Source: Roseibium aggregatum (GTDB lineage Bacteria; Pseudomonadota; Alphaproteobacteria; Rhizobiales; Stappiaceae). Taken from it: 64,000 nt of DNA. The translations under genes were made by a program, and so were the position numbers. How positions within the stretch are numbered: position 1 is the first letter of the stretch; the number at the start of each line of letters is the position of its first letter. The notes under the pieces are model-generated. The model saw only the letters and a program-made list of their open reading frames with translations, did no database searches and was not told the origin of the DNA. Below, piece by piece: positions 52,024 to 60,452 of the stretch. The DNA lies in NCBI RefSeq assembly GCF_017309185.1, contig NZ_JAEKJZ010000001.1, forward strand, positions 744,001 to 808,000. The letters are read 5' to 3'.

Positions 52024-53418
52024 CTATCCGGCCAGATACCAGGGGAGCCACAGGCACAGGCCCGGTACCAGCAGGAGGAGGGCGATCCTGACGATCTCGA
52101 TGGCGAAGAACGGGATCACGCCCAGGAAGACTTCGCCCATGGCGACGCCTTTCGACAGTGCGCTGATGATGAAGACGTTGAGGCCAACGGGGGGCGTGAT
52201 CAGCCCCAGTTCCACCACGACGAGCGCGACGATGCCGAACCAGATCTTCAGGTCTTCGGTGCTGAGCCCGTAAGCGGCGGTCGCGGCAGTGGCATAGTCG
52301 CCGCCGTTCACATCCACCAGGGACGGCCAGAAGAAGGGGACGACCACGAGGATCATGGCGAGCGAATCCATGAAACAGCCGAGCACGATCAGGAGCAGCA
52401 GGATCAGGACGAGCATCAGCCAGGGATCGATGCCGCTTTCGGTGGCGAAGGCGGCCATCGTGGCCGGTAGTCCGGCACGGGAAAAGAAGCCTTTCAGAAC
52501 CTCGGCCCCGAACAGGATGAAGTAGATCATGCCGCTCGTCGACGCCGTGTCCAGGATGGAGGTCTTGATGCCGCTGACGGTCAGGCCGCTATCGGATTTG
52601 GCGAAACGCAGGGCAAGGCCGTAAAGAAGAATGAGCGTGGCACCGACCGCGGCCGCCGGTGTCGGCGTGAAAAGGCCAAGACCGAGGCCGAGGATGATCG
52701 CCCCGAAAATCAGAACCACCGGGATCAGTCTGACATAGGCGGTCCGCCGTTCTTCCCGCGTCATGACGTCACCGGCGGGCGCCATGTCGGGGAAGACCCG
52801 GACGAGCACGGCGATCGTCAGGATAAAGAAGATCACGGCGATGATACCGGGCACGATCGCCGCCTGGAACATCTGCAGGATCGAGGCCTCGACGATGATC
52901 GCGTAGAGCACCAGGGCGACAGAGGGCGGGATCAGAATGCCGAGCGTTCCGCCGGCCGCCAGCGTGCCGGTGGCCAGGCGCGGTGAATAGTTCAAGCGCT
53001 TGAGTTCCGGCAGGGCAACCTTGCCCATGGTGGAGGCCGTGGCGAGCGACGACCCGCAAACCGCGCCGAAGCCGGCGCAGGCGCCGATGGCGGCCATGGC
53101 AACACCGCCCTTGAAGCGTCCCATCAGCGCGTTCAGCCCCTGAAACAGGTCCCGGCTCAGGTTTGAGTGGCTCGCCAGATAGCCCATCAGGATGAAGAGC
53201 GGAACGACGGACAGTTCGTAGTTGGCGACCGTGCCCCACAGCAGGGTCTTGAACTGCTTGAGATACGGTTCGAACCGCAAAAAGGGAACCGCCAGGGAAA
53301 GGGCATAGTTGCCGCCGATGCCGACGAGGACCATGGCGAGCCCCACGGGCACGCGCAGGATCAGCAGAAGGAACAGGACACCGAAGCCGACAATGCCGAT
53401 GGTTTCACGGTCAAGCAT
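52024..53418 (-). CDS. dctM: TRAP transporter large permease DctM
   Basis: A 464-residue large membrane subunit of a TRAP transporter with about twelve helices. Motifs include VPLFILMGYLASHSNLSRDLF, GFGAVCGSSLATASTMGKVALPELKR and AGGTLGILIPPSVALVLYAI. The ATG at 53418 overlaps the dctQ stop by 8 bp and has GGAG upstream. Position 3' of the LysR gene and divergent from the galB-like operon suggests import of the aromatic substrate or a related acid. Confidence 0.93.
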   Translation of the reverse strand: MLDRETIGIVGFGVLFLLLILRVPVGLAMVLVGIGGNYALSLAVPFLRFEPYLKQFKTLLWGTVANYELSVVPLFILMGYLASHSNLSRDLFQGLNALMGRFKGGVAMAAIGACAGFGAVCGSSLATASTMGKVALPELKRLNYSPRLATGTLAAGGTLGILIPPSVALVLYAIIVEASILQMFQAAIVPGIIAVIFFILTIAVLVRVFPDMAPAGDVMTREERRTAYVRLIPVVLIFGAIILGLGLGLFTPTPAAAVGATLILLYGLALRFAKSDSGLTVSGIKTSILDTASTSGMIYFILFGAEVLKGFFSRAGLPATMAAFATESGIDPWLMLVLILLLLIVLGCFMDSLAMILVVVPFFWPSLVDVNGGDYATAATAAYGLSTEDLKIWFGIVALVVVELGLITPPVGLNVFIISALSKGVAMGEVFLGVIPFFAIEIVRIALLLLVPGLCLWLPWYLAG

Positions 53419-53908
53419 CGCTTTCTCCGGAAACAAGCTGGCCGGCAATCACGGCGGCCCAGAGAAGAAGGGAAAGAATACCGGGAAGGTAGAACGGCCA
53501 TTCGGCCCAGCCGAGGACCGGCGACAGGGCGTTGTCGGACCGGGTTTCCAGCATGCCGAGCGTCATCCAGTACGCCAGGAAAAGCGACAGCGCCAGCATG
53601 GCCGCGAGCCAGACCCGGTCCAGAAGGACCTGGACGAACTTCGGCAGCGCCGACACGAAGAGTTCCACGGTGACATGCGCACGCCGGCTCTGGCAGAAGG
53701 GAAAGAACATCAAGGCGGCGCAGGAGACCAGTAACCGGACGAAGTCCTCATATCCGGGCAGGCCGGACAACGGCACGCCCATTGGTCCGGTTACCCGGTC
53801 GAGCGCGAACGCTCCGACGTTGAGCGATGTAACGACCATGATGAGAAAGACAAAAACACCGCCGAGCAATGCCCAACCTGCGGCCGCTTTTCTGACAGCG
53901 GAACCCAT
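53411..53908 (-). CDS. dctQ: TRAP transporter small permease DctQ
   Basis: A 165-residue small membrane subunit of the TRAP system with four hydrophobic segments. The family motif LLVSCAALMFFPFCQSRRAHVTVELF is clear. It overlaps dctM by 8 bp and lies 89 bp downstream of dctP, with a hairpin between them. Confidence 0.9.
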   Translation of the reverse strand: MGSAVRKAAAGWALLGGVFVFLIMVVTSLNVGAFALDRVTGPMGVPLSGLPGYEDFVRLLVSCAALMFFPFCQSRRAHVTVELFVSALPKFVQVLLDRVWLAAMLALSLFLAYWMTLGMLETRSDNALSPVLGWAEWPFYLPGILSLLLWAAVIAGQLVSGESDA

Positions 53909-53997: not shown

Positions 53998-55029
53998 CTA
54001 TTGACTGTTTTCGGTGATGGCCGCGCGCGCGGCATCCACGAGAGCCTTTCCGTCGAGGCCCTTGCCGTTGGCTTCCTCGATCCAGCGGGCAACGACCTTT
54101 TCGCCGGCTTGATTGATGGCCGCGGTGGCGTCGCCGTCCAGGGCGTTCACGGGAGAGCCCGTGCCTGCTTGCAACTTCTTGCCGGGAGCTTCGATGTCGT
54201 TGAAGAGCTGGCCGACTTGCGGGGCGATGGCCACGCCCGCATTCGCGTCGATGACTGCCTTTAGATCGTCGGGAAGCTCGTCGTAGCGGTCCTTGTTCAT
54301 TGCGAACAGAAACACCGATGCGCCGAAGCGGCCGTCGTTTTCCGCCGTAACCGAGCAGTTGGTCAGTTCGTGGATCTTGTAGGGCGGCATGATCTCGAAC
54401 GGCAGCAACGCTCCATCGACAACGCCCTTGGACAATGCCTCAGGCAGGGCCGGAACCGGCATGCCTACAGGCTCGGCTTTCCATTCCTCGATCAGCCAGG
54501 CGCCGGTGCGGCTCGGCGTGCGCAGCTTTTTGTCCTTCAGGTCGTCGGGGCCGGAAACACAGCCGTCAACGGTGTGAATGGCATTGCCTGCGTTGGCGAA
54601 GACCAGCAGCGGATGGACGTCGGAATAGTCGTCTGCGACAAGCTCGAAGTTGTTCGCGATGGCCTGGGTTGTCGCCAGCGCGGAGTTCTGGTGCACCGTC
54701 GGCAGTTCGAACACTTCGCTACGCGGAAAAACGCCTGGTGTGTAGCCGGTGATGGTCAGGACGATGTCTGCCGAACCGTCGCGCACCTGCCTGTAAAGCT
54801 CGCCCGGCTTGCCGCCCATGGACATGGATGGAAACAGCTCGACCTTGATGCGGCCGTCGGATTCCGCCTCGACCTTTTCGGCCCATGGCTCGAGAAACTT
54901 CGTGTGCGGCGGCGATTTCGGGCTCATGAAATGGTGCAGGATGAGCGTGACGTCCTGCGCCTGAGCAACGGTGGAGGCACCGAAAAGAGCCAGTGCGGCG
55001 GCTGTGCATTTAAGGATTTTACGGGTCAT
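53998..55029 (-). CDS. dctP: TRAP transporter solute-binding protein DctP
   Basis: A 343-residue periplasmic binding protein with a signal peptide (MTRKILKCTAAALALFGASTVAQA). It has LHHFMSPKSPPHTKFLEPWAEKVE, GGKPGELYRQVRDGSADIV and the ligand-arginine region DKKLRTPSRTGAWLIEEW. PQVGQLFNDIE and WIEEANGKGLDG mark the C-terminal helices. Ligand unknown; aromatic or C4-type acids are both known for the family. It follows the LysR gene by 105 bp on the same strand. Confidence 0.92.
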   Translation of the reverse strand: MTRKILKCTAAALALFGASTVAQAQDVTLILHHFMSPKSPPHTKFLEPWAEKVEAESDGRIKVELFPSMSMGGKPGELYRQVRDGSADIVLTITGYTPGVFPRSEVFELPTVHQNSALATTQAIANNFELVADDYSDVHPLLVFANAGNAIHTVDGCVSGPDDLKDKKLRTPSRTGAWLIEEWKAEPVGMPVPALPEALSKGVVDGALLPFEIMPPYKIHELTNCSVTAENDGRFGASVFLFAMNKDRYDELPDDLKAVIDANAGVAIAPQVGQLFNDIEAPGKKLQAGTGSPVNALDGDATAAINQAGEKVVARWIEEANGKGLDGKALVDAARAAITENSQ

Positions 55030-55134
55030 GTCTATCCTCCCTGATAGATATCCTCCTTGCCGGACGTCACTGTCCGGTGGTGGGCGAACCCTATGCAGAG
55101 AGGCTGGCAAGTTCTAATTGGAATGGTGTCGGAG

Positions 55135-56388
55135 CTATTGATTTTTGATATAGATGGATGTGCCTTGGGTAAGGTTGCTGGCAGCCTTCCGTAGTAAACC
55201 CATAAATTGTTTCTGGGTCGGTGTCGCCCGCCAGTCGCGGCGCGTGGTAATCCCGATGGGCCGGCCGGTGCCTGGCAGGTCGAAAGGCACGCGTGCGACC
55301 TGACCGCGTGCGGCTTCCTCATGCATCTGGTGAGCCGAAATCAGGGCCAGCCGGTCGCTGCCTTTCAGGATCCCCTTCATGAGAACGTGGGAGCCGGTAT
55401 CGACCAGCCTTTCCGGCGGTTCCTTTCCGGCGTTTTTGAACAGGGCGTCGAAGTGTTTCCGGGTCGGCGTGCCGGGGCGCGGAACGGTCCAGGGATAGAG
55501 CAGGAGATCGTCGAGCGTGATGGTTGCCTTTTCCGCGAGCGGGTGTCCTGTGCGTGCGAAAATGCCGAGTTGGTCGGTGAACAGCGCTTCCTGCTCGACA
55601 TCGTCGATGGGAACTGGGTCGCGCAACGCGCCGATGATAAAATCGATCTCGCCGTGGCGCAGTCCATGAAGAACGTCGTCGTAGGGCCCGTCGACGACGG
55701 AGATCTGAACGAAGGGGCGGTTGGCGGTAAGCTCGTTGATGGCCGTCGGCAATACGAAGCTGCGCGCCAGCGGCAGCGTGCCCACCGTGATGTGAGCGGA
55801 ATCGACGCCTCGGGTCGCATCGATTTCTTCAAAGGCGTGTTTGAGCTCCGAATACGCCAGCTTCGAATATTGCGCCAGCACGCGGGCCGCTTCAGTCAGG
55901 TCTATGCCCTGCTGGCTCTTGACGAACAGCTTCAGCCCGGAAACCGCTTCAAGGTCTCGAGAGACCCGGTGGAGCGACGGCTGGGAAACGCCGATATGCC
56001 GGGCCGCGAGCGTGAAATTGCCGGAGTGCTCGACCGCGAGCAAGGCGCGCAATTGCGTGCTGGTGATCAGCTGATCGAACGGCACACCACCGGCGGTGTT
56101 GCCTCGGGCCTGTTTCTTGAGAGCCAGCGTACAGCCCTCCCGGATCAGGGACAGCGCCCGCTGCGCCCGCACCTGAAACAGCGTGCCCGCCTCGGTCAGA
56201 AACATGCCCGAGGTGCCGCGGATAAAGAGCTGCTGCTGGAAAACACCTTCCAGCTTGGCGATCGCCTGGGTAATGGCGGGTTGCGACAGGTTGACGGCGT
56301 TCGCCGCCGCGGTAATGCCGCCACCTTTTGCCACCTCTAGGAAAACTCTAATGTGGCGAAGGTTCAAAATCTCACGTTCTCTTGCCAT
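55135..56388 (-). CDS. LysR-family regulator with two tandem helix-turn-helix domains
   Basis: A 417-residue protein, about 110 residues longer than a normal LysR regulator. The first winged helix-turn-helix is at about 8-65 (LRHIRVFLEVAKGGGITAAANAVNLSQPAI then LFIRGTSGMFLTEAG). A second, related one is at about 108-166 (LRALLAVEHSGNFTLAARHIGVSQPSLHRVSRDLE then LFVKSQQGIDLTEAA). The substrate-binding domain occupies about 198-400. The ATG at 56388 has GGAG before it. It is divergent from galB and precedes dctPQM, so it is the probable regulator of both units. Retention of only the second effector domain suggests internal duplication or fusion. Confidence 0.88.
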   Translation of the reverse strand: MAREREILNLRHIRVFLEVAKGGGITAAANAVNLSQPAITQAIAKLEGVFQQQLFIRGTSGMFLTEAGTLFQVRAQRALSLIREGCTLALKKQARGNTAGGVPFDQLITSTQLRALLAVEHSGNFTLAARHIGVSQPSLHRVSRDLEAVSGLKLFVKSQQGIDLTEAARVLAQYSKLAYSELKHAFEEIDATRGVDSAHITVGTLPLARSFVLPTAINELTANRPFVQISVVDGPYDDVLHGLRHGEIDFIIGALRDPVPIDDVEQEALFTDQLGIFARTGHPLAEKATITLDDLLLYPWTVPRPGTPTRKHFDALFKNAGKEPPERLVDTGSHVLMKGILKGSDRLALISAHQMHEEAARGQVARVPFDLPGTGRPIGITTRRDWRATPTQKQFMGLLRKAASNLTQGTSIYIKNQ

Positions 56389-56543
56389 TTTCACTCCGTC
56401 GAGATTGGAGGAATAGCATTTTCTTATAAACTGTGCAGCCAATTCAAATGGCGTTCCAGATCGCCTTCGCGGAAGGTACGCGCAACAGGATCATACCGAG
56501 GGCCGTATTTCTTCACCCTTGGCGAAAGTCTGGGGAGACCAAT

Positions 56544-57278
56544 ATGACCGACAAAAAAACAGCACTCGTGATCAGTGCTCATGCCGCCGACTTCGTCTGG
56601 CGCTGCGGCGGCGCGATCGCGTTGCACCAGAAACTGGGGTACGAGGTCACTGTCGTTTGCCTGTCCTACGGCGAACGCGGCGAAAGCGCCAAGCTCTGGA
56701 AAGAACCGGAGATGACGCTGGACAAGGTCAAGGCGGCGCGCCGCAAGGAAGCGGAAAACGCGGCGTCGGCGCTGAACGTTCACGACATCAAGTTCATGGA
56801 TCTGGGTGACTATCCGCTTGAGCTCGACCGGGACGCGAAAGACCGGCTCGTCGATATCGTCCGGTCCGTGCAGCCTGCTTTCATGATGTCGCACTCCAAA
56901 TACGATCCCTATAACACGGACCACATGTACGCGACGCAGATCGCGATGGAGGTCCGCATGATCGCTCAGGCCTGGGGACATAACCCGGGCGAAAAAGTCC
57001 TGGGCGCGCCACAGCTCTATCTCTTCGAGCCCCATCAGACCGAACAAATGGGCTGGGTCCCGAATGTCTTCCTCGACATCACCGATGTCTGGGAAAACAA
57101 GCGGGCGGCCATCGAATGCATGGAAGGCCAGCACCACTTGTGGGCCTATTACACCAATGTCGCGGAAAACCGCGCGAACCATTTCCGGCGCAATTCCGGC
57201 GGTCAGGCCGGCGGCCGGGCCGCGAAATACGCCGAGGGCTTCCAGGCCATCTATCCGCGGTGCGTCGATGAGCTTTGA
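56544..57278 (+). CDS. galB: 4-oxalomesaconate hydratase GalB-like (PIG-L/LmbE family)
   Basis: A 244-residue metal-dependent hydrolase-fold protein of the PIG-L/LmbE family. The sequence LVISAHAADFVWRCGGAIALHQKLGYEVTVVCLSYGERGESAKLW matches the remembered GalB of Pseudomonas putida, which hydrates 4-oxalomesaconate to 4-carboxy-4-hydroxy-2-oxoadipate. Other metal-site residues are in MMSHSKYDPYNTDH. The ATG at 56544 follows GGGGAGACC and starts directly before the first strand. It is first of five co-directional genes. Confidence 0.88.
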   Translation: MTDKKTALVISAHAADFVWRCGGAIALHQKLGYEVTVVCLSYGERGESAKLWKEPEMTLDKVKAARRKEAENAASALNVHDIKFMDLGDYPLELDRDAKDRLVDIVRSVQPAFMMSHSKYDPYNTDHMYATQIAMEVRMIAQAWGHNPGEKVLGAPQLYLFEPHQTEQMGWVPNVFLDITDVWENKRAAIECMEGQHHLWAYYTNVAENRANHFRRNSGGQAGGRAAKYAEGFQAIYPRCVDEL

Positions 57279-57335
57279 GGCTCTGGTAAAGGCGGCATGC
57301 CGGCGTTTGTCGAGAAAATCCAGTGGAGACCATCG

Positions 57336-57743
57336 ATGCTAGACCTCAACTTCCTTAACCCCGTCAGGGAATGGATCCTGGCTGCCGCGCGCATCATGTT
57401 CGGCCTGTTGCTGCTCGAGCATGGGACGATCAAGCATCTGAACTTCCCCGAACACCCGATGAACGCGGTCACATGGTTTCAGCTGTCCGGCGTTGCAGGG
57501 ATCCTCGAGCTGGTCTTTGGGACATTGCTGGCGGTCGGATTGTTCGCGCGCCTGAGCGCTTTTGTTCTCAGCGGTCTGGCGGCCTGCGCCTATTTCATCG
57601 CCTACGCGCCGAAAGGGTTCTTCCCCTTCCTGAATGGCGGAGAGTCCGCAGTGATCTACGCTTTCGGCCTGTTGGTCCTCGCAGCCTACGGACCCGGCAA
57701 ACTCGCGCTGGATTCCTTGCGGCCGGGGGCAAAAAACAAATGA
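57336..57743 (+). CDS. DoxX-family membrane protein
   Basis: A 135-residue membrane protein with four hydrophobic helices. It has the DoxX family pattern: AARIMFGLLLLEHGTIKHLNFPEH, then GVAGILELVFGTLLAVGLFARLSAFVLSG and YFIAYAPKGFFPFLNGGESAVIYAFGLL. GGAGACC precedes the ATG. DoxX proteins are poorly characterised; some associate with redox enzymes. Its place between galB and the dioxygenase gene, tightly spaced, suggests a helper or transport role in the pathway. Confidence 0.85.
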   Translation: MLDLNFLNPVREWILAAARIMFGLLLLEHGTIKHLNFPEHPMNAVTWFQLSGVAGILELVFGTLLAVGLFARLSAFVLSGLAACAYFIAYAPKGFFPFLNGGESAVIYAFGLLVLAAYGPGKLALDSLRPGAKNK

Positions 57744-57753
57744 GGAGGAAACA

Positions 57754-58722
57754 ATGAATCAACCGACCAACCCGTCATTTGACCTGGCTCATCTGGCGCA
57801 TGTCGAGGTTCTGACAAACAAGTTCGACGAGAGTCTCGATTTCTTCACGCGGGTCTATGGCCTGACCCTGTCCGGACAGGACGAAACGTCGGCCTATCTC
57901 AGGGCGTGGGACGATTATGAGTTCCATTCCTTGAAACTGACCAGAAGCGACACGACCGGCATCGGCCATGTCGCCTACCGGGCCGCTTCGCCCGAGGCGC
58001 TGGAACGGCGCGTCACCGCGATCGAGGCCAGCAAGTACAAGGTCATCGGCTGGGTCGAGGGCGACCTGGGCCACGGCCGAGCCTTTCGCTTCGAGGATCC
58101 CTTCGGTCACGTCTTCGAAATCTATTGGGAAACGGCCAAATATCAGCCGGGCGAGGCTGACACGCCGGCCTTGAAGAACAATGCCAGCAGGTTCCACGCA
58201 AGCGGTGCCTGCCCGCGTCGGCTCGATCATCTGAACCTTCTGTCGAAAAACGTGACCGAGTTCCGTGACTTCATGGTTACCTGCCTTGGGTCACGGATCA
58301 CCGAATATATCCAGCTCGACAACGGCCGTCTCGGCGGCTGCTGGTTCACGGTCAACAACAAGACCTACGATCTCGCCTGCACCGAAGAACATGGCGGTGG
58401 CAACGGTCGTCTCCATCATGTGACCTATGCGACCGACCAGCGTGAGGACATTCTGCGGGCGGCCGACATCTTCCTGGAAAACGGCGTTTTCATCGAAACC
58501 GGTCCCCACAAGCACGCGGTTCAGGGCACCTTCTTCCTCTATGTCTGGGAGCCTGCCGGCAACCGGGTCGAACTGGCGAATTCCGGTGCGCGCCTGATCC
58601 TGGCGCCCGACTGGGAACCGGTCTGCTGGACGGAGACGGACCGCAAGAAGGGGCAGGCCTGGGGCCTCAAGACAATCGAGAGTTTCCATACCCACGGCAC
58701 GCCGCCCGTCGGAGAAAAGTGA
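57754..58722 (+). CDS. Type I extradiol ring-cleavage dioxygenase (VOC fold)
   Basis: A 322-residue two-module VOC protein like catechol 2,3-dioxygenase. Predicted Fe(II) ligands are His159 (RRLDHLNLL), His221 or His222 ([10 protein letters not shown]) and Glu273 (NRVELANSG). The extradiol-type signature [12 protein letters not shown] carries the catalytic tyrosine at about 263, and His254 fits the second catalytic histidine. The N-terminal module (about 10-130) lacks a complete metal site, as expected. GAGGAGG precedes the ATG. Lying between galB- and galC/galD-like genes, it should make 4-oxalomesaconate or a close analogue, so gallate or a relative is the inferred substrate. Known gallate dioxygenases are LigAB-type. 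Confidence 0.87.
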
Positions 58723-58723
58723 C

Positions 58724-59395
58724 ATGGCTGTTGTGGTTGAGAAAATCGAACGCGCGGACCCATCGGTCATCGAAAAGCTTGGCGCAGCCGGTGTGGCAAC
58801 CGTCCACGAAGCCCAGGGCCGCAGCGGCCTGCTGGCTTCGAAAATCCGGCCCATCTGGCCGGGCGCCCAAATCGCCGGGTCCGCGGTGACCATTTCCGCG
58901 CCGCCGGGAGACAACTGGATGATCCATGTGGCCATCGAACAGCTTCAGGCGGGAGACATTCTGGTGCTCGCGCCGACGGCTCCGTGCGACATGGGCTATT
59001 TCGGCGACCTCCTGGCGACGTCCGCGATGGCACGTGGCTGCAAGGGACTGGTCATCGATGCCGGGGTCCGCGACGTGCGGGATCTGAAGGACATGGGGTT
59101 CCCGGTCTGGTCCGCGGCCATTTCGGCGCAGGGGACGGTCAAGGAAACCCTGGGTTCCGTCAATATTCCGATAGTCTGCGCCGGTGCATCGGTCAGTCCG
59201 GGAGATATTGTCGTCGCGGACGACGATGGGGTCTGTGTCGTTCCAAGGGCTAACGCGGAGGCGGTTCTGACGGGCGCGGAAAAGCGGCTTGCGGCGGAAG
59301 AGGCAAAACGCCAGCGCCTTGCTGCCGGAGAACTCGGGCTGGATATCTACGACATGCGCCCACGGCTGAAGGAGAAAGGCCTGAAGTATGTCTGA
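58724..59395 (+). CDS. galC: 4-carboxy-4-hydroxy-2-oxoadipate aldolase GalC/LigK-like (RraA fold)
   Basis: A 223-residue RraA-fold class II aldolase that would cleave 4-carboxy-4-hydroxy-2-oxoadipate into pyruvate and oxaloacetate. The active-site stretch [28 protein letters not shown] contains the G-D-L-x-A and catalytic R-D features of this group, with [12 protein letters not shown] at the N-terminus. It starts 1 bp after the dioxygenase stop and overlaps the next gene by 8 bp. RraA-like RNase inhibitors share the fold, but genomic context supports the aldolase. Confidence 0.9.
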
Positions 59396-60452
59396 TCCCG
59401 GGCTGGACGGCATTCCTTGCATCTGGATGCGCGGAGGAACGTCCAAGGGAGCCTATTTCCAGGCGGAAGATCTTCCAGGCAGCGAAATGGAGCGTGACGC
59501 GCTGCTTCTACGCGTCATGGGCGCGCCCGACCCGCGCCAGATAGACGGTATCGGGGGGGCGGACCCTTTGACCTCGAAAGTCGCCGTCCTGTCGCCGTCC
59601 ACACGTCCGGACGCGGATGTCGATTATCTGTTTCTCCAGGTGTTTGTCGACAAGCCGCTCGTTTCCGGTGCGCAGGGCTGCGGCAACATTCTGGCCGGTG
59701 TCGGGCCGGCCGCCCTGGAAATGGGCCTGTGTCCGGCGGAGGACGGCGAAACGGTCGTCCGCATTCACATGGTCAACACCGGAGAGGTGGCTGTCGCCAC
59801 GGTGCAGACACCGGAACAACGCGTCTCGTACCGGGGAAGCGCCGCGATAGACGGCGTTCCGGGGACACATGCGCCCGTCAAGCTCATGTTCGAGAGCCTT
59901 GCAGGCTCCATGTGCGGCGATCTGCTGCCAACGGGAAACCCGGTCGACCGGATCGACGGCATCGACTGTACGCTGATTGACAACGGCATGCCCTGCGTCA
60001 TCATGCGGGCGGAGGATCTTGGGATCTCGGGCTCCGAAAGCCGTGAAGACCTGGACGCGGACACCGAGCTGAAAGCCCGGCTGGAAAGCATCCGCCTTCA
60101 GGCGGGGCCCTTGATGAACCTCGGGGACGTGACCGAAAAAAGCGTGCCCAAGATGACGCTGGTTTCCGCTCCCGAAAACGGTGGCGTGGTGTCGACGAGA
60201 AGCTTCATTCCCCATCGCTGCCATGCCTCCATCGGCGTCTTTGCCGCGGTAAGCGTGGCGACCGCGTCGCTCCTGGAGGGCAGCCCGGCGCACGGAGCCG
60301 CCGTTCCGCCGGAAGGCAGTCTTTATCGGATCGAGCATCCGAGCGGCGCCGCGGAAGTTCTGCTCAATCTCAAACCCGATGGCTCGGTCATGTCGGCGGG
60401 GAGCGTTCGCACCGCCCGCAAGCTCATGAGCGGCCACGTGTTTCCGGTATGA
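59388..60452 (+). CDS. galD: 4-oxalomesaconate tautomerase GalD-like (PrpF family)
   Basis: A 354-residue isomerase of the PrpF/diaminopimelate-epimerase fold. It begins [26 protein letters not shown], the family hallmark, and has [18 protein letters not shown] and the cysteine region [14 protein letters not shown]. putida GalD tautomerises the ring-cleavage product of gallate before GalB acts. Its ATG overlaps the galC-like stop by 8 bp. The gene ends the operon and is convergent with the YihY-type gene. Confidence 0.88.

Follow-up and report, generated by a model that had tools for sequence, protein, structure and literature searches.

Gene organization at the locus

The DNA analyzed here (the window) is a stretch of 64,000 nt from the genome of Roseibium aggregatum (GCF_017309185.1; contig NZ_JAEKJZ010000001.1, positions 744,001-808,000). 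It carries five intact genes on the + strand, encoding in order a GalB-like hydratase, a small DoxX family protein, an extradiol dioxygenase of the vicinal oxygen chelate (VOC) superfamily (hereafter the VOC protein), GalC, and GalD. The genes are separated by 18, 10, 1, and -8 bp, and their products matched the Pfam families PIG-L, DoxX, Glyoxalase, RraA-like (GalC), and PrpF (GalD), respectively (Table 1). A reading made earlier from the letters of the DNA (the sequence-only reading) had described the same five tightly packed genes; its coordinates and gene order were right, and its family assignments agreed with our searches of Pfam, NCBIfam, and the PDB. The cluster is probably (about 0.77) an operon for gallate catabolism. 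In place of the known gallate dioxygenase, GalA/DesB, it would use a type I extradiol dioxygenase that is unrelated to that enzyme and belongs to the catechol 2,3-dioxygenase branch within the VOC superfamily.

Table 1. Genes of the cluster and its flank, with window coordinates
Feature	Position	Strand	Family or structure match
galB-like, PIG-L family 4-oxalomesaconate (KCH) hydratase, 244 aa	56544..57278	+	PF02585; best PDB 5cgz, E 3.3e-89
DoxX family small protein, 148 aa	57297..57743	+	PF07681, 29.1 bits (cut-off 23.6)
VOC-fold (type I) extradiol dioxygenase, 322 aa, proposed gallate dioxygenase	57754..58722	+	PF00903 (Glyoxalase)
galC, 4-carboxy-4-hydroxy-2-oxoadipate aldolase, 223 aa	58724..59395	+	TIGR02798, 378.3 bits (cut-off 304.5); PDB 3noj, E 1.2e-90
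galD, 4-oxalomesaconate tautomerase, 354 aa	59388..60452	+	NF033377, 512.7 bits (cut-off 440); PDB 6p3j, E 7.1e-140
LysR-type regulator, divergent	55135..56442	-	best NCBIfam match PcaQ, under its cut-off
TRAP transporter DctP, candidate uptake system	53998..55110	-	PF03480
TRAP transporter DctQ	53411..53908	-	PF04290
TRAP transporter DctM	52024..53448	-	PF06808

GalC and GalD exceeded the cut-offs of their equivalog families, and the solved chain nearest to the GalB-like protein, 5cgz, is a 4-oxalomesaconate hydratase. Judged by these matches, the three genes encode the galBCD lower pathway.

Conservation of the neighborhood

A scan of GTDB species genomes revealed 435 stretches that encode a relative of the VOC protein at E 1e-3, and the best 80 of the 435, all at least 80% identical to it, were examined as named relatives. 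Further loci were taken from an order sample (25) and from plasmids (6); some loci are shared between the named set and the order sample (e.g., L066 and L033). The 113 related loci include L058, the split VOC gene of genome G188, and L059, a paralogue of 44% identity; neither belongs to the 112 family sequences, of which 109 are distinct. For comparison, 22 loci of more distant type I paralogues (27-43% identity) served as controls. Neighbors were searched at E 1e-15 at the family loci and at E 1e-10 at the control loci, and GalB, GalC, and GalD were counted as near the VOC gene when they lay within 5 kb of it.

All three Gal genes accompany the VOC gene at this distance in 65 of the 80 named relatives, some of them in 7, and none in 8. 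The corresponding numbers were 10, 6, and 9 in the order sample and 4, 1, and 1 on the plasmids, whose records name the VOC gene 'VOC family protein', 'catechol 2,3-dioxygenase', or BphC and nothing more specific. Not one of the 22 control loci has any of the three genes, and chance adjacency was rejected on this comparison. The sequence-only reading had called for a search of genomes for VOC-galB-galC-galD neighborhoods lacking galA, and the outcome was largely as it had predicted: besides the linkage, the LigA domain was absent in 34 of the 49 carrier genomes searched. Its argument that the Gal genes reveal the product of the oxygenase fared less well. The linkage is conserved, but GalD proteins above the cut-off occurred with neither a VOC gene nor a LigA domain in 21 of 54 genomes (8 of 36 when GalD scored at least 500 bits), so that the lower pathway alone is not strictly diagnostic of either dioxygenase.

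At three of the 22 family loci without GalB (L116, L124, and L147), the neighborhood includes a LigJ-type hydratase, an enzyme from the amidohydrolase family. The copy of L116 matches PDB 2gwg and 6dwv, both named 4-oxalomesaconate hydratase, and those of L124 and L147 are 76% and 64% identical to it. Because this hydratase lies near the VOC gene where GalB is missing, the same compound is predicted to be served there by a hydratase of another family.

DoxX proteins pair with type I dioxygenases, as in CatD-CatE of Bacillus subtilis. A paper on catDE (PMC6212828) does not use the word DoxX in the portion of its text available. DoxX homologues were found at only 2 of the 113 related loci (L042 and L080), and DoxX was rejected as a core partner; the sequence-only reading had pointed to it as an extra partner, a role that its poor conservation does not bear out. 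It is an occasional accessory.

Fold and active site of the VOC protein

The predicted structure of the VOC protein (pLDDT 85.9) was best matched in the PDB by 3lm4 and AphC 7q2a, and also by LapB 3hpv and 1mpy. Residue roles were assigned by alignment only. Alignment to the homoprotocatechuate 2,3-dioxygenase 1f1x gives H159, H222, and E273 as the putative metal ligands. The sequence-only reading had proposed the same three-ligand site and left the middle position as H221/222; the site was upheld, and the choice falls most likely on H222, since it is this residue and not H221 that aligns with His214 of 1f1x, which we take to be a metal ligand. H159, H222, E273, H254, and Y263 are identical in 112/112 family sequences. 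The fold and the predicted 2-His-1-carboxylate iron site thus place the protein among the type I (VOC) extradiol dioxygenases. Of the features of GalA/DesB (PF02900 with PF07746, and NF009904 above 412 bits) none was found in it, and it matches VOC families only.

Arg243 and Arg293 of 1f1x, which presumably bind the substrate carboxylate, are replaced by T249 and G300; the first of these columns holds Arg in 19/22 paralogues. Carboxylate binding in the manner of homoprotocatechuate 2,3-dioxygenase was rejected on this basis. The corresponding family model, TIGR02295, gave the VOC protein 192.3 bits against a cut-off of 321.4, which a distant paralogue in the same genome passes.

The column of His200 of 1f1x holds Tyr in 112/112 family sequences (Tyr205 in the window) vs His in 22/22 paralogues and in 3lm4, 3hpv, and 1f1x, and the second-sphere catalytic His of type I enzymes was accordingly not found in the VOC protein. 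We assume that His194 of BphC occupies the same position as His200 of 1f1x. The corresponding His is called catalytic in BphC and DesB in the part of PMC3962378 available. H252, R280, and Q301 are kept across the family of the VOC protein and are absent from 3lm4, 3hpv, and 1f1x; as a guess from their conservation, they may be candidates for binding the carboxylate and the third hydroxyl of gallate.

Other ring-cleavage dioxygenases in the genome and in carriers

The sequence-only reading had named a separate LigAB-type gallate dioxygenase elsewhere that accounts for the activity as one of the findings that would speak against it. We looked for such an enzyme in the window's own genome and found none: there was no match to the LigA domain (PF07746) and none to the gallate dioxygenase family NF009904 (GalA) at E 1e-10, and the two proteins with PF02900 (LigB family) were otherwise assigned, the first as an HpaD_Fe homoprotocatechuate 2,3-dioxygenase (464.3 bits, cut-off 315.95) and the second as DOPA-dioxygenase-like (173.1 bits, under the cut-off of 233). 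A second gallate dioxygenase of this type was therefore rejected for this genome.

The order sample comprises 199 genomes, 26 of which, the window genome included, carry a full-length VOC protein of at least 62% identity; G188, with its split gene, is additional to these 26 carriers. GalA exceeded the cut-off of NF009904 in 3/199 genomes, none of them a carrier. Because there are only three such genomes, this non-overlap is not significant alone.

Two side observations concern other dioxygenases. At locus L060 of the own genome (G000:C4:83000-102000), a type I homoprotocatechuate dioxygenase (C4:90042-90935; HpaD 425.4 bits, cut-off 321.4) lies 7 kb from the type II HpaD_Fe enzyme (C4:97866-98690), so that one activity is apparently doubled by two unrelated enzymes. 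At L049:2189-3220, an alpha/beta hydrolase domain is fused to a LigA domain in a single reading frame adjoining LigB.

Evidence for gallate as the substrate

LigM, the vanillate/3-O-methylgallate O-demethylase, yields protocatechuate and gallate, and tannase releases gallate. LigM homologues lie near the VOC gene at 15/113 loci vs 0/22 controls. The one copy scanned of the 15, that of L064, exceeded the equivalog cut-off (639.1 vs 580) and matches PDB 5tl4. In L041, L064, L076, L079, L109, L117, and L128, LigM, TRAP genes, and the VOC gene follow one another on a single strand. The LigM gene of the own genome (631.7 bits) adjoins DctP, DctM, and a PurU-type formyltransferase-family gene, and its surroundings also include a gene with a weak match to methylenetetrahydrofolate reductase. 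In L143, from A. tumefaciens 186 isolated from walnut, the next gene downstream of GalD encodes a tannase (PF07519, 437.9 bits).

Protocatechuate 3,4-dioxygenase (PcaH) was found above its cut-off in 24/26 carriers vs 87/199 genomes overall, and the two carriers without it both have LigA-domain proteins. LigI is needed for 4,5-cleavage of protocatechuate and would be expected wherever a dioxygenase for that route occurs, but a search at E 1e-25 found none in 9/26 carriers. Of these nine, seven are at least 97% complete (the others, G181 and G024, 86% and 93%); six are also without LigA, and in each of the six GalD scores above the cut-off. Gallate is preferred as the substrate because of the LigM and tannase neighbors, the presence of PcaH, and the absence of LigI from these nine carriers. 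It is also the compound described as cleaved directly to 4-oxalomesaconate (PMC12314914, in the part available). The suggestion of the sequence-only reading that the protein may be a new gallate dioxygenase thus gained support from the linkage, from the missing LigAB-type enzyme, and from the LigM, tannase, PcaH, and LigI data; we infer the conversion of gallate to 4-oxalomesaconate by the VOC protein from gene context only.

Alternative substrates and points against gallate

Several observations weigh against this assignment, and some of them bear on protocatechuate. The VOC protein might be a type I protocatechuate 4,5-dioxygenase whose semialdehyde product is converted to 2-pyrone-4,6-dicarboxylate, perhaps by a DUF1932 dehydrogenase, and then by LigI to 4-oxalomesaconate for GalD, GalB, and GalC. 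DUF1932 dehydrogenase homologues, which have no role in the scheme for gallate, occur at 57/113 loci, the VOC gene has a LigI homologue nearby at 7/113, and in L043 the genes for LigI, the VOC protein, and DUF1932 stand in a row. LigM also yields protocatechuate, from vanillate. Furthermore, LigI co-occurs with the VOC gene in the carriers above expectation (at least 310 bits in 9/26, a match at any level in 17/26), by Fisher values that ignore kinship, and the own genome has a LigI homologue on another contig (C2:462676-463536) beside a DctM gene. Nevertheless, we regard protocatechuate as unlikely because 24/26 carriers have PcaH and 9/26 are without LigI; the stretch of L042 also shows neither DUF1932 nor LigI.

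Some related genes were noted in passing. Examples of the DUF1932 dehydrogenase-like neighbors of the VOC gene are L134:240-1124 and L049:7012-7917. Among the controls, a LigI-like gene (38%) stands at L167, and DctM homologues occur at four loci. Locus L152 of the own genome (G000:C2:446000-464000) holds a second GalD paralogue (462.4 bits) together with DUF1932, TctA transporter, and thiamine-diphosphate enzyme genes, and the LigI homologue beside DctM lies 7 kb from this group; these genes perhaps serve to import a pyrone or some other carboxylate.

It is improbable that the VOC protein is a 3-O-methylgallate dioxygenase whose product reaches 4-oxalomesaconate by methyl ester hydrolysis or via 2-pyrone-4,6-dicarboxylate. 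The association with LigM and the presence of the C1 gene PurU at 5/113 loci are consistent with this route, and Pseudomonas NGC7 is described in the part of PMC12314914 available as cleaving 3-O-methylgallate directly and feeding galBCD. However, LigM strips the methyl group from 3-O-methylgallate, no frequent esterase was seen among the representatives of that part of the neighbor clusters that was scanned, and LigI is missing from the same nine carriers.

Equally improbable is a broad catechol 2,3-dioxygenase of the usual kind that stands, by chance or for detoxification, beside genes for importing and degrading 2-pyrone-4,6-dicarboxylate or another source of 4-oxalomesaconate: the catechol 2,3-dioxygenase model TIGR03211 is the best family for the VOC protein (296.9 bits, cut-off 320.2), 39/39 members of set A2 match it with an E value of 0.001 or lower, and its cut-off is exceeded by four of eight other family members scanned singly (L043, 331.8; L048, 363.2; L049, 335.4; L053, 366.4), but the VOC protein, L062, L117, L040, and L045 fall below it, Tyr205 is invariant where the paralogues have His, and the linkage to GalB, GalC, and GalD is conserved.

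Of the four members that pass TIGR03211, L043 is 73% identical to the VOC protein, and L048, L049, and L053 are 62-65% identical. The latter group may use another substrate. Four carriers, genomes of this group, have no GalD above the cut-off. The setting also differs there: L053 (63%) has LigI, GalB, and GalC and, ahead of the VOC gene, a gene without a family match; the order at L053:3414-8913 is LigI, TctC, GalB, GalC, this gene, and the dioxygenase. The gene presumably resembles 4,5-dihydroxyphthalate decarboxylase.

The remaining unfavorable points concern the neighborhood itself. GalB, GalC, and GalD are all missing near the VOC gene in 18/112 stretches (L059 left out). The LigM homologue of L111 is only 41% alike, and tannase is a neighbor at 1/113 loci; a search of the own genome found no tannase, but this search was weak, as its control matched nowhere either.

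Proposed pathway and its significance

In the gallate operon that we propose, gallate would either enter the cell, perhaps through the divergent tripartite ATP-independent periplasmic (TRAP) system, or arise there when LigM demethylates 3-O-methylgallate. The VOC protein would bind gallate on Fe(II) held by the aligned ligands H159, H222, and E273 and break the C4-C5 bond. Because C5 of gallate carries a hydroxyl, the product would be a carboxylate, 4-oxalomesaconate, and neither a semialdehyde dehydrogenase nor a lactonase would be needed. GalD, GalB, and GalC, assigned to their families by search, would then convert 4-oxalomesaconate to pyruvate and oxaloacetate by the reactions of the Pseudomonas pathway. 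The LysR-type protein, a homologue of which is present at 70/113 related loci, probably activates the operon. In this regulator and in that at L125:4988-6172, HTH_1 was matched in two stretches, as if there were two DNA-binding domains.

Beyond the window, we lean, with less assurance than for the operon itself, towards a broader view: a type I family widespread in Rhizobiales and Rhodobacteraceae would have independently become dedicated gallate dioxygenases, with a carboxylate product and an invariant Tyr in place of the catalytic His, and would be the main enzyme of gallate ring opening there, tying the breakdown of syringyl lignin and tannin to the Gal pathway. In searches of the open-access PMC literature, no title or abstract opening pointed to a gallate dioxygenase of the VOC type. 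In the portions of these papers available, a Marivivens genome paper (PMC11278965) does not mention gallate, PMC12673573 concerns MhqO, and Aspergillus niger is reported to use gallate without any of 17 candidate ring-cleavage genes (PMC10512348), so that further routes exist elsewhere. If the assignment is correct, a key step in the turnover of lignin and tannin carbon has undergone non-homologous replacement, and the gallate dioxygenase that had been missing from many alphaproteobacteria is accounted for. The gene would also mark the ability of marine and plant-associated bacteria to use those lignin and tannin units that yield gallate, and the exchange of His for Tyr provides a natural test of oxygen activation by extradiol enzymes.

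Comparison with known systems

The type I catechol 2,3-dioxygenases (1mpy, LapB 3hpv, AphC 7q2a, and 3lm4) share the fold of the VOC protein (TM 0.81-0.90, normalised by the model), its H159/H222/E273 ligands, and the residues His254 and Tyr263, whereas the VOC protein is only 25-37% identical to them, has Tyr205 for His, and stands in another operon context. With the homoprotocatechuate 2,3-dioxygenase 1f1x, the fold and the metal ligands are common, but Arg243, Arg293, and His200 correspond to T249, G300, and Tyr205. The closest solved sequence is PDB 9wgj (E 5.5e-106), which shares Tyr205, R297, and Q301 and is without R230, T249, H252, and R280. This entry was deposited as a catechol 1,2-dioxygenase, yet its sequence groups with the type I extradiol enzymes, and the deposited name may be wrong.

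GalA/DesB, a type II enzyme of the LigAB superfamily (NF009904), has the same proposed substrate and product and the same place before GalD, GalB, and GalC, but the two proteins have no detectable relation, the one being a LigB protein with a LigA domain and the other a member of the VOC family. The lower pathway is likewise that of the galBCD operon of Pseudomonas, with a ring-opening enzyme from another superfamily here. In the syringate pathway of Sphingobium (DesA, LigM, and DesB), LigM is an element also found nearby in some relatives of the window locus, and it is again the superfamily of the ring-opening enzyme that differs.

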